In this document: one piece after another, positions 30,430-35,675 of the stretch
Layout: every line of letters begins with the position of its first letter
Position numbering within the stretch: position 1 is the stretch's first letter
DNA from: Pelagicoccus sp. SDUM812003
Lineage (GTDB): Bacteria > Verrucomicrobiota > Verrucomicrobiia > Opitutales > Opitutaceae
Direction: 5' to 3'
Length of the DNA: 64,000 nt
Assembly (NCBI RefSeq): GCF_031127815.1
Contig: NZ_JARXHY010000001.1
Location: forward strand, 1 to 64,000
Position numbers and translations under genes: made by a program
Notes under the pieces: model-generated
Database searches by the model: none
What the model saw: the letters and a program-made list of their open reading frames with translations, nothing else
Told to the model about the DNA's origin: nothing

Positions 30430-31671
30430 ATGTCTCGTCCAACTGCTATTTCCGCGGAAATCGCTGCCATCTATCGACGCGAATCTGGAAAAGTGATCGC
30501 GACCTTGGCCCATTTGCTGGGCGATTTGGATCTTGCGGAAGACGCCATGCAGGACGCGTTTGCGGTAGCGGTTAAGACTTGGCAGGAGAATGGGATTCCC
30601 GAAAAGCCGGCGGAGTGGCTCATTTCCACGGGGCGATTCAAGGCCATCGATGCGATTCGCCGGCGCTCCAAGCTTGAGACGCTGCAGCCCGAGCTGGCTC
30701 GACGATTGCAGGAGATCGAGGACGCGAATCTTTCTTTGGCGGAACGCGATATCAAGGACGACCGCTTGCGGCTGATCTTCACCTGCTGCCACCCGGCGAT
30801 CGATCTCAAGGTGCAGGTACCGCTGACGCTGCGCGAAGTATGCGGGCTGACGACCGAGGAAATCGCCAGCGCCTTTCTGACCGCTCCAGCCACCATGGCC
30901 CAGCGCATCGTGCGCGGAAAGGCCAAGATTCGAGACGCCCGGATTCCGTTTGTTATCCCCTCGCTGGCGGACTTGCCGGAGCGGTTGGACGCGGTCTTGT
31001 CGGTCATCTATCTGGTTTTCAACGAAGGCTATTCCGCTTCCACGGGTGAGAGTTTGACTCGCCTCGACCTTTCGCAAGAAGCCATCCGGCTGGCCCGCCT
31101 CGTGTTGGAGCTGATTCCCGACCCGGAGGTGAAAGGGCTGCTGGCCCTGATGCTGTTGCACGAGTCTCGTCGAACCACGCGCGTCGACGCCCAAGGAGAC
31201 ATCGTTCTGCTCGAAAATCAGGATCGAAGTCGCTGGGACAAACAGCTTATCGCTGAAGGCTGCGCTTTGGTCGAGGAGTCGCTGGCCTCGCGACGCTTCG
31301 GTTTCTACGCCATTCAGGCGGCCATTTCGGCGACCCATGCCGAAGCGGCTTCGAGCGAGGAAACGGATTGGGCTCAGATCGTGGCCCTCTACGATGTCTT
31401 GCTGCGCATCGAGCCATCGCCAGTGATCGAACTCAATCGCGCTGTGGCGGTCGCCATGCGGGACGGACCCGAGGCGGGCCTGGCTTTGATTGACGCGTTG
31501 TTGGAGCGAGGCGAGTTGGTCGATTATCACTTGGCGCATTCCGCCCGTGGCGAGCTTCTGCATCGACTGGGGCGCGGAGAGCTTGCCAAGGCAGCGTTTG
31601 AGACGGCCCTCGGACTCGCCAAGCAGGAGCCGGAGCGCCGTTTTCTGCGTCGCCGGATCGCGGCGCTTTAG
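30430..31671 (+). CDS. ECF42-type RNA polymerase sigma factor with C-terminal TPR-like domain
   Basis: This is a 413-residue extracytoplasmic-function sigma factor. Sigma2 (IYRRESGKVIATLAHLLGDLDLAEDAMQDAF) and sigma4 (REVCGLTTEEIASAFLTAPATMAQRIVRGKAKIR) occupy the first ~190 residues. The rest is a long helical domain (DAVLSVIYLVFNEGYSAS...ALLERGELVDYHLAHSARGELLHRLGR) found in the ECF42 group, which is regulated through this extension and not by a membrane anti-sigma factor. ECF42 genes are typically linked to DGPF/YCII genes, as here. The ATG at 30430 has no close ribosome-binding site; 30361 is an in-frame alternative that overlaps ldhA. Confidence 0.88.
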   Translation: MSRPTAISAEIAAIYRRESGKVIATLAHLLGDLDLAEDAMQDAFAVAVKTWQENGIPEKPAEWLISTGRFKAIDAIRRRSKLETLQPELARRLQEIEDANLSLAERDIKDDRLRLIFTCCHPAIDLKVQVPLTLREVCGLTTEEIASAFLTAPATMAQRIVRGKAKIRDARIPFVIPSLADLPERLDAVLSVIYLVFNEGYSASTGESLTRLDLSQEAIRLARLVLELIPDPEVKGLLALMLLHESRRTTRVDAQGDIVLLENQDRSRWDKQLIAEGCALVEESLASRRFGFYAIQAAISATHAEAASSEETDWAQIVALYDVLLRIEPSPVIELNRAVAVAMRDGPEAGLALIDALLERGELVDYHLAHSARGELLHRLGRGELAKAAFETALGLAKQEPERRFLRRRIAAL

Positions 31672-31730
31672 GCTGCCCGTCTAGGACCTCGCCCCGGCGG
31701 GCCAATTTTTTTGGAAAAACCTCCGACCGT

Positions 31731-31758
31731 TGTCGATTTGCCGTCAGCTCCTTCGATC
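31731..31758 (+). promoter_or_regulatory. putative ECF42-dependent promoter
   Basis: TGTCGA (31731-31736) and CGATC (31754-31758) are separated by 17 bases. They match the -35 TGTCGA and -10 CGA(T/A)C-type motif I recall for ECF42 sigma factors in Streptomyces. The element lies 60 bases after the sigma gene and about 75 bases before the first DGPF gene, the position expected for the operon promoter. Confidence 0.65.
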
Positions 31759-31834
31759 AATGGGTGTAAATTCAATTAGCTCCTGGCGTCAGTCCAGCGG
31801 AGCGATGTGCAACCCACCAACGATAGATTCGATT

Positions 31835-32683
31835 ATGAGAGTGATGGTATTAGTGAAGGCCACCAAGAGTTCCGAAGCGGGTGAAATGCCCAGCGAGCAA
31901 TTGATGGCGGACATGGGGACGTTCAACGAAGCGCTGGTCAAAGCGGGCATCATGCGGACTGGCGATGGGCTTAAACCCAGCTCTGCCGGAGTGCGTGTGC
32001 GCTTTAGCGGCAAGGAGCGCATGGTGACCGATGGTCCTTTCGTGGAAACGAACGAGCTCGTCGCGGGCTATTGGCTGTGGGAGGTCGCGTCCATGGACGA
32101 AGCGATCGAATGGGTGAAGCGTTGCCCAAACCCGATGCCGGAGGATTCCGAGATCGAGATTCGTCCCTTCTATGAACCGGAGGACTTCGCGAAGGCCGAT
32201 CCGTCGGGCAAGCTGCGAGAGCGGGAGGAAGCGCTTCGCGATGCGATTTCCCTGCAGTCCGCTCAGGTGCAGTCCTACCTCTTTTTCAGTGGTCGCTGCG
32301 AGGAAGCTCTCTCGTTCTACACGGAGGTCTTGGCTGCGAAAGTCGGCATGATGATGCGCTTCAGCGAGTGCCCGGATCCTTTGCCGGAGGGGATGCTTCA
32401 GCCAGGATTCGAAAACAAGATCATGCATGCGGATTTCACCGTTGGGAAAACGAATCTCATGGCCTCCGATGGCTGTGGCGAGTCGGGAAGCTACGAGGGC
32501 TTTCGTCTTTCGCTCACTGTATCCACGGAAGCAGACGCCGCACGAGTTTTCAACGCTCTCTCGGAGGGCGGGAAGATCGACATGCCATTGGGCAAGACCT
32601 TCTGGTCGCCTTGTTTCGGGATGGTGACGGACAAATTCGGTATCGGATGGATGGTTACGATTCCCGATCCAGCGAATTCATAA
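31835..32683 (+). CDS. DGPF/YCII domain fused to a VOC (PhnB-like) domain
   Basis: This 282-residue cytosolic protein is a two-domain fusion. Residues 1-~125 are a DGPF/YCII-type domain, including the signature VTDGPFVETNELVAGYWLWEV. Residues ~147-282 form a vicinal-oxygen-chelate/PhnB-like domain (SYLFFSGRCEEALSFYTEVL...LGKTFWSPCFGMVTDKFGIGWMV). In most genomes these are separate genes. It is the first gene after the ECF42-type promoter. Both domains belong to ferredoxin-like or VOC small-molecule enzyme families without an established reaction here. Co-regulation with four further small genes suggests a shared detoxification or modification step. Confidence 0.8.
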   Translation: MRVMVLVKATKSSEAGEMPSEQLMADMGTFNEALVKAGIMRTGDGLKPSSAGVRVRFSGKERMVTDGPFVETNELVAGYWLWEVASMDEAIEWVKRCPNPMPEDSEIEIRPFYEPEDFAKADPSGKLREREEALRDAISLQSAQVQSYLFFSGRCEEALSFYTEVLAAKVGMMMRFSECPDPLPEGMLQPGFENKIMHADFTVGKTNLMASDGCGESGSYEGFRLSLTVSTEADAARVFNALSEGGKIDMPLGKTFWSPCFGMVTDKFGIGWMVTIPDPANS

Positions 32684-32719
32684 GGTATACAAAATAAGAA
32701 TACGAAAGGAGAAACTGTT

Positions 32720-33205
32720 ATGACGAAAACAAACGACACGAAAGCGGACGAAGCGAAGATTCGAAAATTGATGGCCGACTGGTCCGATGCTTTGGAGCGT
32801 AAGGATGTAGACGGACTGGTTGCGAATTATGCTTCGGACGTGATTCTCTTCGATGCGATTCCACCGTACAAACGAGTTGGCGTTGAGGAGATTCGAGACA
32901 CATGGACGCATTGCTTGCCTCATTTCCCAGAGACATTCCAGTCCGAGCATCGCGACATCACGGTGCAGGTAGCGGGCGATGTCGCGTTCGCATACGGCGT
33001 TCATCATATCGTCGCTGACGATCATCCCGCTGCGAAGTCTTGGATGCGGGTGACGGTTGGGTTCCGTCGCATCGAAGGCCAGTGGAAGGTGATGCACGAG
33101 CACGTTTCGCTGCCATTCAACCCGATGGACAACCAAGCGTGGTCGATCACGGATCCGGAGGTCTTAAGCCAGCCGGACTACTCGGGAGCTTGCGCGGGAG
33201 GCTGA
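32720..33205 (+). CDS. SnoaL/ketosteroid-isomerase-like protein
   Basis: This 161-residue NTF2-fold protein begins with DEAKIRKLMADWSDALERKDVDGLVANYASDVILFD, the usual opening of SnoaL-like polyketide cyclase/isomerase relatives, and ends with FRRIEGQWKVMHEHVSLPF. A strong AAAGGAG ribosome-binding site precedes the ATG. It is the second gene of the DGPF operon, 36 bases after the fusion gene. Members of this fold associate with ECF41/ECF42 systems, but the ligand is not known. No signal peptide is present. Confidence 0.8.
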   Translation: MTKTNDTKADEAKIRKLMADWSDALERKDVDGLVANYASDVILFDAIPPYKRVGVEEIRDTWTHCLPHFPETFQSEHRDITVQVAGDVAFAYGVHHIVADDHPAAKSWMRVTVGFRRIEGQWKVMHEHVSLPFNPMDNQAWSITDPEVLSQPDYSGACAGG

Positions 33206-33254
33206 TGAAACCGATAATGATTCCCCAAACGCCTCACATTCAACCTGACGAACA

Positions 33255-33641
33255 ATGAAGTACATGCTCCTGACTTATGGAAAGGAAGACGCTTGGACGG
33301 AAGAGGAACGCGAAAGCTGCATGCTCGAGTCCATGGCGATCTGCGACGAACTGGAAGCCCAGGGAAAGTGGATAGCTTCCTCGCCTCTTTATCCTGTAGA
33401 CAGCGCCACCAGTTTGCGGATACGCGACGGAAAGCGGCAAATCACCGATGGTCCTTTTGCGGAAACAAACGAGCAGCTCGGCGGATACTACATCATCGAT
33501 GTAGACGATCTCGACGAAGCGATATCGATCGCAAGCCGCTTGCCGCCGGCTAAGAAAGGAACGGTGGAGATCCGTCCCCTGTTTCCGCTTCCTGAGCGAA
33601 GCGCCGAGGCGGAGGCGAGATACGAAGGCAAGCCTGTATGA
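33255..33641 (+). CDS. DGPF/YCII-domain protein
   Basis: This 128-residue single-domain protein has the DGPF signature ITDGPFAETNEQLGGYYIIDVDDLDEAI and the N-terminal YMLLTYGKEDAW strand characteristic of the family. It is a cytosolic ferredoxin-like fold of unassigned activity. It overlaps the DoxX-like gene by four bases (ATGA), so the two are translationally coupled. It is the second of three DGPF domains in this operon and is more similar in pattern to the last one than to the fused copy. Confidence 0.85.
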   Translation: MKYMLLTYGKEDAWTEEERESCMLESMAICDELEAQGKWIASSPLYPVDSATSLRIRDGKRQITDGPFAETNEQLGGYYIIDVDDLDEAISIASRLPPAKKGTVEIRPLFPLPERSAEAEARYEGKPV

Positions 33642-34033
33642 ACAAATCAAAGACAAAGCTGGCCGGCTGGATCTTGAGCGGCCTGTTGTCGGCGTTTCTC
33701 ATCTTCGCGAGCGCCAGCGGAAAGTTCACCGATTGGGAAGGGAAGGAGGAGATGTTTAGCCATCTCGGGTGGTCGATCGATACCATGGTTGCTATCGGGA
33801 TACTTGAGGTGTTGATCGCCATTCTCTACCTTGTTCCTCGCATCGCGTTCTATGGAGCGATTATGCTCTCCGCATATCTCGGAGGCGCCGTCGCTACTCA
33901 TGTGCGCGTTGGTGATCCCTATTTTATGCCGGCGCTGCTTGGCATCGTCGCTTGGGTCTCCCTGGCGTTGCGCGATCCGTCGGTTTGGAATCTAGCGCTT
34001 GGAAAACGTAACGAATTATCAACTACGGATTAG
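33638..34033 (+). CDS. DoxX-like four-helix membrane protein
   Basis: The protein has 131 residues with four predicted transmembrane helices (about 8-26, 47-66, 72-90, 98-113). The sequence LSAFLIFASASGKFTDW, GILEVLIAILYLVPRIAFYGAIML and YLGGAVATHVR follows the DoxX-like family pattern. The role is unknown; related proteins have been linked to redox or sulphur metabolism at the membrane. Its start overlaps the preceding DGPF gene and the PhnB-like gene follows after four bases, so it is firmly inside the ECF42-linked operon. Confidence 0.8.
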   Translation: MNKSKTKLAGWILSGLLSAFLIFASASGKFTDWEGKEEMFSHLGWSIDTMVAIGILEVLIAILYLVPRIAFYGAIMLSAYLGGAVATHVRVGDPYFMPALLGIVAWVSLALRDPSVWNLALGKRNELSTTD

Positions 34034-34037
34034 GCTT

Positions 34038-34514
34038 ATGAAACTGAATACGAAAGTCACCCCGTGGCTCGGCTTCAAGAACCAGGCCGAAGAAGCCGCG
34101 GCTTTTTATACCTCGCTGATTCCGGACTCTCGAGTGGGCAAGGTTCGACGTAATCCCGCCAATGATGAGGTCCTGTTCGTGGAGTTCGTGCTTGGTGGCA
34201 TCCCCGTTTGCGCTCTGAATGTCGGGCAGGACTGGGAGTTTACCACCGCCTTTTCATGGTCGGTCGCCTGCGACACGCAGGAGGAGCTGGATCGGATTTG
34301 GAACGCCTTGTGCGAGGGCGGAAAGGAAGTGCAGTGCGGCTGGCTCGAGGATCGCTACGGCCTATCGTGGCAGATCGTGCCGGCCCAATTGGGCCAGTGG
34401 ATGGACGACCCGGATGGTGAGCGAACCAGTCGCGTGCTGAATGCGGTCTGGAGCATGGTGAAGCTGGACATTCCCACGCTACAGGCTGCTTACGAGGGAA
34501 GGGAGGTCACGTGA
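34038..34514 (+). CDS. VOC-family PhnB-like protein
   Basis: This 158-residue protein resembles the PhnB / 3-demethylubiquinone methyltransferase-like VOC family. It opens with VTPWLGFKNQAEEAAAFYTSLIPDSRVGKV and contains LGGIPVCALN, the DTQEELDRIWNALCEGGKEVQCGWLEDRYGLSWQIVP core and a late RVLNAVWSMVKLDI helix. These proteins bind small molecules or metals in a double beta-alpha-beta fold. I use the ATG at 34038, four bases after the DoxX-like stop. The next gene's GTG overlaps the stop of this one. Confidence 0.82.
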   Translation: MKLNTKVTPWLGFKNQAEEAAAFYTSLIPDSRVGKVRRNPANDEVLFVEFVLGGIPVCALNVGQDWEFTTAFSWSVACDTQEELDRIWNALCEGGKEVQCGWLEDRYGLSWQIVPAQLGQWMDDPDGERTSRVLNAVWSMVKLDIPTLQAAYEGREVT

Positions 34515-34870
34515 AGTATTTGATCCTGCTGCACGCGGAGGAGGGAGCGTGGTCGCCTGAGGACTACAAGGCCGCTCTGGCTGAGTCGATCAAGCTCTGC
34601 CACGAGCTCGCGTCGGAAGACGTGTTTCTCGGGGCTCATCCCCTTCAGGCGCCCGAAACGGGAGCAGTGGTCCGCGTGCGAGAGGGAAAGCGTTTCGTGT
34701 CCGATGGCCCTTACGCGGAAACCAAGGAGTATCTGGGAGGCTACTTTCTGGTGGACGTGCCCAGCATGGAGGAGGCGATCGAAATCGCAGCTCGAATCCC
34801 TGGTTCGCATCGCGGCACCGCGGAAATTCGCCCCGTGCTTGAAGTGGAGGGCTTGCCAGGAGGCGTTTAG
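34511..34870 (+). CDS. DGPF/YCII-domain protein
   Basis: This 119-residue protein is the third DGPF domain of the operon, with VSDGPYAETKEYLGGYFLVDVPSMEEAI and an opening KYLILLHAEEGAW. It starts with GTG at 34511 inside a GTGA overlap with the PhnB-like gene, showing translational coupling. It is the last gene of the operon; the downstream TetR gene has its own operator-like promoter region. The activity is unassigned, as for the family. Confidence 0.85.
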   Translation: MKYLILLHAEEGAWSPEDYKAALAESIKLCHELASEDVFLGAHPLQAPETGAVVRVREGKRFVSDGPYAETKEYLGGYFLVDVPSMEEAIEIAARIPGSHRGTAEIRPVLEVEGLPGGV

Positions 34871-34977: not shown

Positions 34978-35030
34978 TTGACCATTTGTCTACTAAATCG
35001 TCAAAACCGCTTGACTAGACGAATGGTCAA
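34978..35030. promoter_or_regulatory. putative TetR operator and promoter
   Basis: TTGACCATT (34978-34986) and AATGGTCAA (35022-35030) are perfect inverted copies 35 bases apart. A further GTCAA-aaccgc-TTGAC inverted repeat lies between them at 35000-35015. The cluster of TTGAC/GTCAA half-sites lies just before the TetR gene and probably overlaps its promoter, implying autoregulation. Confidence 0.6.
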
Positions 35031-35048: not shown

Positions 35049-35675
35049 ATGGGAAGAAAGTCTGACGCCAAGGAACGTTTGATCGAGGCCGTCCTGGATC
35101 TGATCTGGGAGGGCAGCTACGGCTCCTTGCGCATCGACGACATCTGCGCCAAGGCGGAGGTGAAGAAGGGAAGCTTCTACTATTTTTTCCCGTCCAAGGA
35201 CGCCCTCGCGGTGACCGCTTTGGAGCACTACTGGGAGAATTCCGCAAAGCCGTTCATGGACAAGCATTTCTCCCCATCGATGACTCCCATGGATCGCATT
35301 CAGAGCTATATAAAGGGAGTGATCCAGCACCAGCGTGACATTGCCGAGCAACGCGGCCGCGTGCTGGGTTGTTCTGTTCTCTCCATCGCTTGCGAGACGG
35401 GGACCAGCGATGAGGCCGTGGCCAACACGGCTCGTAGTATCTTCTCCCGCAAGAGCAAGTACCTCGAGTCTTGTATCCGAGACGCTATCGCCGAAGGGGA
35501 GATTCCGCCGATCGATCCCGAGGAGCGAGCGGCGGGCTTGTGGGCCCTTATGGAGGGTTCCATGGCCCAGGTCCGAATACTCGGAGACCTCAAACCGCTC
35601 GAGCGCCTGCCTTCGCTGGCGGTTTCCTTTCTGCGCTCGCCCGTAGAAGGCAAGAATCCGACCTCCGCTCACTAG
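35049..35675 (+). CDS. TetR-family repressor of the adjacent RND pump
   Basis: This is a 208-residue cytosolic regulator. The N-terminal TetR DNA-binding domain is clear: AKERLIEAVLDLIWEGSYGSLRIDDICAKAEVKKGSFYYFFPSKDAL. The C-terminal helical ligand domain (IAEQRGRVLGCSVLSIACETG) resembles the TetR subgroup that responds to small hydrophobic compounds. It is followed 114 bases later by the efflux adaptor gene, which shares a GTCAACTA operator-like element with the promoter of this gene. Repression of the pump relieved by an efflux substrate is the expected logic. Confidence 0.9.
   Translation: MGRKSDAKERLIEAVLDLIWEGSYGSLRIDDICAKAEVKKGSFYYFFPSKDALAVTALEHYWENSAKPFMDKHFSPSMTPMDRIQSYIKGVIQHQRDIAEQRGRVLGCSVLSIACETGTSDEAVANTARSIFSRKSKYLESCIRDAIAEGEIPPIDPEERAAGLWALMEGSMAQVRILGDLKPLERLPSLAVSFLRSPVEGKNPTSAH

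Follow-up and report, generated by a model that had tools for sequence, protein, structure and literature searches.

Does an extracytoplasmic function (ECF) sigma factor of Pelagicoccus sp. SDUM812003 transcribe the operon that follows its own gene, and from which promoter? The stretch that raises this question comprises the first 64,000 nucleotides of contig NZ_JARXHY010000001.1 (assembly GCF_031127815.1; hereafter the window), in which an ECF42-type sigma factor gene (30430-31671, forward strand, 413 aa) is separated by a gap of 163 bp from six genes on the same strand (31835-34870). An earlier note on this DNA had proposed that the gap holds an ECF42-type promoter, and the motif lies where the note had placed it, with TGTCGA at 31731-31736, a spacer of 17 and CGATC at 31754-31758. 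Sequence comparison indicates that 31731-31759 is very probably a real ECF42-type promoter, and the sigma factor most likely transcribes the six-gene operon from this single promoter.

The evidence comes from the position and conservation of the motif at other ECF42 loci. We collected the best 80 of 589 named loci, ranked by similarity to this sigma factor, and 20 stretches of relatives, taken as larger stretches out of 29 non-own matches, in which neighboring genes were placed by tblastn. Because the named loci were picked by similarity, their sample leans to this ECF42 subtype; it includes many Pseudomonas loci and none named as an actinobacterium. Eleven distant loci (L155-L165) were left out of the motif counts, as their motif differs and they branch as a clade of their own, so that these counts use 90 loci in 57 lineages, clustered at 80% identity. 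Of the 57 lineages, 51 (81 of the 90 loci unclustered) carry TGTCGA-N16/17-CG(A/T)C in a gap preceding an operon gene or directly following the sigma gene; 298 permuted motifs averaged 0.09 with a maximum of 2, and the reverse strand of these regions yielded 1. With spacings from 8 to 31 admitted between TGTCGA and CG(A/T)C, the distribution peaked at 17 (88 sites), with 32 sites at 16 and 4 to 29 at each other spacing; TGTCGA-N15..18-CGWCTA in ECF42 loci had a spacer of 17 in 59 of 79 cases, of 16 in 17, of 15 in 2 and of 18 in 1. Among 97 collected sites, the -10 element read CGACTA in 66, CGACCA in 8, CGACAA in 6, CGTCTA in 4, CGACTC in 3 and CGTCTC in 2, along with single forms. As read from these sites, the -10 element of the family is CG(A/T)C followed mostly by TA, and not CGA(T/A)C as the earlier note had written it; the Streptomyces ECF42 motif, which that note drew on, reportedly contains CG(A/T)C and had been misread.

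Four near relatives (genomes G001, G003 and G039 and Verrucomicrobiota bacterium JB023) have the operon after the sigma gene, a fusion of YCII and VOC domains, and TGTCGA at the same spacing as in the window. When the gap was aligned among these five, TGTCGA was the longest invariant run, and CGA of the -10 element stood at the same spacing; the only other invariant run of three was an upstream AAA, with single invariant columns elsewhere. The earlier note had pointed to loss of the motif in close relatives that keep the operon as a test of its proposal, and in these relatives the motif is retained, with CGACTA as the -10 element in all four. Another locus of the same layout, L149 of genome G029 (60% identical), has no exact motif, and its gap shows GGTCGA-N17-CGACTA by eye; L149 may keep the site with a changed -35 element.

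Several results weigh against reading the window's site as an ordinary, active member of this set. Its -10 element, delimited from the sequence, the weight matrix and the alignment, is CGATCA (31754-31759, forward strand), with T as the fourth base where C stands in 98% of 80 homologous sites. CGATCA is unique to the window in the collected set, and the sole other CGAT site is one of those at L137 (CGATTA). The TGTCGA of the -35 element, found by pattern search, and the spacer of 17 (the commonest of the usual 16 to 17) are those of ECF42 target promoters; since CGAT fails CG(A/T)C, we call the site ECF42-like with a divergent -10 element, and the window belongs to the 6 of 57 lineages that lack the strict TGTCGA-N16/17-CG(A/T)C. 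A weight matrix trained on other ECF42 loci (80 distinct spacer-17 sites) gave this site 22.1; in leave-one-out scoring, true sites had a median of 31.2 and a 10th percentile of 21.6, about where this site falls. A second matrix, of 28 positions and with each 80%-identity lineage entered once, gave it 15.9, below the training sites' in-sample 10th percentile of 22.1, and two other genomic spacer-17 sites, both overlapping open reading frames (ORFs) of >300 aa, scored higher (18.7 and 16.5). With a matrix built on nine sites, some genomic spacer-16 sites scored between 17.3 and 19.4. The training sites had been preselected for TGTCGA and CG(A/T), which fixes those columns and leaves only the later -10 bases and the spacer free. 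When whole loci were counted on both strands, the excess was less striking (179 sites; 60 permuted motifs had a median of 34 and at most 100), and gaps of 36 and 49 bp inside the operon leave room for internal promoters. Because other genomic sites outscore it, the promoter was identified by position and conservation and not by score alone.

The alternative that survives best, and that we regard as quite unlikely, is that the site is a weakened relic. The -35 element would then have survived and the -10 element changed by drift (CGACTA to CGATCA), and most transcription of the operon would come from another promoter or by read-through of transcripts from the sigma gene. The deviation at the fourth base and the CGACTA of the four near relatives are what such decay would leave, and the sigma factor has no matching change: its sigma2 segment, GRFKAID, is usual for CGA users, being shared by 62 of the 79 rows whose -10 element has CGA (the window counted). 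Read-through is possible because a candidate hairpin and T-run between the sigma gene and the promoter (31675-31712, forward strand), which resembles an intrinsic terminator, is without statistical support: its fold gave a z score of -1.57, with 14 of 200 shuffles equally good, and a wider stretch gave -0.48. A scan for terminators across the region found 6, compared to 7.1 in shuffles, and a terminator between the sigma gene and the operon is unsupported by either analysis. The decay proposed in this alternative is opposed by the retained -35 element, spacer length and spacer composition, by six intact reading frames, and by the site's rank as by far the best of the window (22.1 on the first matrix, with 8.3 for the next position on either strand). 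Possible causes of CGATCA are drift, a weaker promoter or an assembly error.

A chance match, with the operon served by some unrelated promoter, is very improbable. The pattern in the form of the earlier note, TGTCGA-N16-18-CGA(T/A)C, is found 50 times in the genome, compared to 11 for the same pattern read backward, and by itself therefore says little; 33 of the matches have the untypical spacer of 18, 13 have 17 and 4 have 16, and the note's proposal to predict the regulon with it did not hold. In the window, the pattern with spacers of 15 to 19 occurs 3 times (0.74 expected), a count that 3 of 100 shuffles reached. Each of the 12 other genomic sites inspected overlaps, on one strand, an ORF of 100 aa or more. 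As a criterion this is weak, because the mechanical upstream extension of the first operon gene covers the true site as well. This longer ORF opens at 31730, which is probably not the real protein start because the proteins of relatives begin at the same M(R/K)VM residues; the start is the ATG at 31835, 75 bp 3' of the -10 hexamer. What chance does not account for is that the site is conserved at the same place in relatives and ranks first in the window.

We then asked how many targets the preferred ECF42 promoter reading leaves in the genome. A search of the assembly (97.5% complete) turned up a single full-length ECF42 gene; two further matches were weak, and no second full-length candidate emerged. 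Only three YCII matches were detected, all in this operon. Pattern and matrix searches of the genome, with 12 other sites inspected singly, gave no second convincing ECF42 promoter. In G001 and in G003 the exact pattern occurs twice, in each case once before the operon. The earlier note's proposal of a self-contained response module agrees with these results, and a module with one promoter is the best reading of them, not proof. Separately, and in keeping with a likely Verrucomicrobiota origin, the genome carries a sigma gene above the cutoff of the Rhodopirellula/Verrucomicrobium subfamily, which none of 14 control genomes reached.

A two-sigma cascade, in which the ECF42 factor also drives an ECF41-like sigma gene on contig C18 (L187, 1501-2528), was rejected and keeps almost no credence: the genome's only exact TGTCGA-N16/17-CGWCTA (TGTCGA-N16-CGTCTA) does lie ~75 bp 5' of that gene, but exact sites are no commoner than in the backward control (1 versus 3), the site overlaps the end of a preceding cation-efflux-like gene, the 400 bp examined at each of 15 relatives of the ECF41-like gene contained no TGTCGA site, and the closest relative (G015, 70%) has TGTCACA...CGTC, matching the TGTCACA-N16-CGTC motif given for ECF41 in the accessible part of PMC3426412, while G020 has TGTCGG...CGAC. 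As an observation of its own, JB023 carries an ECF41-like sigma gene (L066, 12272-13159; SnoaL_2 match below cutoff) ~2.3 kb after its ECF42 operon.

The sigma factor is taken as ECF42-type from its domains and neighbors. The 413-aa protein has the ECF core of sigma2 and sigma4, with sigma70_r2, sigma70_r4_2 and DUF6596 above the Pfam cutoffs and TPR_12 and TPR_8 below theirs. The C-terminal TPR extension of ~200 residues typical of ECF42 was judged to be present, and the YCII (DGPF) gene expected near an ECF42 gene is represented by three YCII domains in the operon. A predicted model of the protein (predicted local distance difference test score, 85.9) is helical and is confident in its C-terminal half; structure searches with it matched TPR proteins best, all weakly and none below an E value of 0.001, and no solved structure was found by sequence at an E value of 0.01. 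None of the 25 NCBIfam matches listed for the protein is to an ECF42 model. The closest named relative comes from Verrucomicrobiota. Among seven downstream proteins scanned with Pfam, none matched an anti-sigma family. An anti-phage system was considered and discarded, as 7 of 7 proteins had no PADLOC match.

The six operon genes, all on the forward strand, encode a YCII(DGPF)-VOC fusion protein (31835-32683; Pfam YCII at residues 1-102 and 3-dmu-9_3-mt at 145-274), a SnoaL-like protein (32720-33205; SnoaL_3, 5.7e-19), a YCII (DGPF) protein (33255-33641; YCII, 8.5e-25; PDB 1s7i, PA1349, 2.9e-24), a DoxX-like protein (33638-34033; DoxX_2, 1.3e-13) with a membrane location predicted from its family, a VOC-like (3-dmu-9_3-mt) protein (34038-34514; Pfam, 2.3e-36; PDB 1u69, 1e-31) and a YCII (DGPF/DGPY) protein (34511-34870; YCII, 1.2e-17). 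The intergenic gaps are 36, 49, -4, 4 and -4 bp. The motif thus does lie between an ECF42 sigma gene and an operon, as the earlier note had stated; the tight coupling that it ascribed to the genes holds for three of the five junctions. Solved relatives are 1s7i for YCII and 1u69 for the VOC-like protein. In the YCII rows, D-G-P, two E, a G and a final E and R are shared in at least 96%, which suggests a putative conserved binding or active site; the structure alignment left out L112 (stop codon in the stretch) and L120. Downstream of the operon, an inverted repeat (34978-35030; two 23-nt arms, 83% complementary, with 7 nt between) stands directly 5' of a TetR gene (35049-35675) that precedes resistance-nodulation-division-type efflux genes, and is likely a TetR operator.

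How usual this gene set is was counted in 101 loci, the window included, on the strand of the sigma gene and within 5 kb. A YCII relative was present in 97 of the 101, SnoaL in 34, VOC in 29 (with one VOC model, so that the other VOC type may be missed), DoxX in 8, and SnoaL together with DoxX in 3. The SnoaL-like and DoxX-like genes that the earlier note had singled out beside the DGPF genes are indeed there, and they are not new to ECF42 loci. The YCII-VOC fusion occurs in five loci, exactly the clade formed by the window and the four near relatives (Shimodaira-Hasegawa-like approximate likelihood ratio test, 99, in a quick tree). In G001, G003 and JB023 a DUF1428 gene is present and a SnoaL match absent. 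From the sequences, the operon seems to be a variable collection of small proteins that probably bind ligands. Across 57 genomes of the order, ECF42 was found in 20 (E value of 1e-30 or better) and YCII in 23; 19 had both, 1 had ECF42 only, 4 had YCII only and 33 had neither (Fisher P of 2.5e-10, which ignores kinship). The sole ECF42-only genome gave a partial match and is 86% complete. Within the same genus, three genomes lack both, and G004 and G005 carry ECF42 genes of other subclades. The gene content, the promoter architecture and position conserved across relatives, and this co-occurrence can be read from the sequences themselves.

For the preferred reading we propose the following course of events. 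The active ECF42-type sigma factor would direct RNA polymerase to TGTCGA-N17-CGATCA at 31731-31759, and the six genes would be transcribed from a start a few bases after 31759; we infer both the use of this promoter by this sigma factor and the unity of the transcript. The YCII, VOC-like and SnoaL-like products probably bind or modify small molecules, and the DoxX-like product would be the one membrane protein. In other ECF42 members, the TPR extension is described as essential for activity, with a role of the YCII protein in regulation suggested (accessible part of PMC8999054), and activity is proposed to be suppressed when a partner binds the TPR domain (accessible part of PMC9023288). By analogy, activity of the present factor is probably set by its TPR-like C-terminal half, perhaps in partnership with a YCII protein, and not by an anti-sigma factor.

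Known systems place this locus further. The accessible part of PMC6180224 describes the Sinorhizobium meliloti ECF42 factor RpoE10, with glyoxalase-like and hydrophobic-ligand-binding targets and a related motif, which its authors find in agreement with earlier ECF42 predictions. As far as described there, RpoE10 shares with the present factor a TPR-type extension, no anti-sigma factor identified nearby, a YCII-related neighbor, a TGTCG-type -35 element and glyoxalase-like targets. It differs in having its YCII gene upstream of the sigma gene and sites of the form TGTCGG...CGTC, whereas here the operon lies downstream with TGTCGA...CGATCA, and the YCII-VOC fusion, SnoaL and DoxX belong to the present operon. 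The earlier note was right that the promoter lies in a non-actinobacterial setting; its hint of novelty does not stand, as ECF42 outside actinobacteria was already published with RpoE10, and what sets the present promoter apart is its divergent -10 element. Pseudomonas ECF42 loci (e.g., L069 and L072) also group SnoaL, YCII and ECF42 genes, with TGTCGA-N17-CGACTA before the operon; there the genes lie upstream of the sigma gene and are read together with it, and here the operon follows. The four near relatives differ from the window in their -10 element, and three of them in having DUF1428 and no SnoaL match. ECF41 sigma factors likewise combine a C-terminal extension with a neighboring target, and differ in the motif cited above and in a SnoaL-like extension instead of TPR (accessible part of PMC3426412). 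A literature search for ECF42 with DGPF or TGTCGA returned no paper, and the accessible parts of reviews and of the S. meliloti paper contain nothing on this operon in this lineage. The apparent pairing of a sigma factor with an adjacent target operon of small, probably ligand-binding proteins is found in many bacteria; here the promoter is slightly unusual.

The promoter differences extend to other ECF42 subclades of the order. The distant clade L155-L165 comprises 11 genes, from ten genomes of the same family or order together with a second gene of G011; its YCII gene precedes the sigma gene, and TGTC-N17..19-CGT(T/C) stands before the YCII gene in 10 of the 11 loci, with TGTCC in nine of the ten. 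Permuted motifs averaged 0.5, and 1 of 200 reached 10, in a control whose shuffling could regenerate the motif itself. Another subclade (L150 of G019, L151 of G005, L152 of G015 and L154 of G004) combines TGTCGA with CGTCT(A/C), not CGACTA, and all four differ at the sigma2 residue in the place of F70, although residue differences between promoter groups are confounded with kinship. G011 and G029 each hold ECF42 genes from more than one subclade. It is tentatively conceivable that ECF42 promoter specificity split several times within one bacterial family, that the elements insulate coexisting modules, and that CGATCA is a further private state.

These results extend a known module of one sigma factor and one operon, with its conserved promoter, to this lineage, and correct the motif with which it should be searched. 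The promoter differences between ECF42 subclades, like the divergent -10 element, offer a lead that can be tested with reporters. With a single predicted target promoter, the locus would be a convenient module for testing the signal of the family and the substrates of the YCII, VOC and SnoaL proteins.

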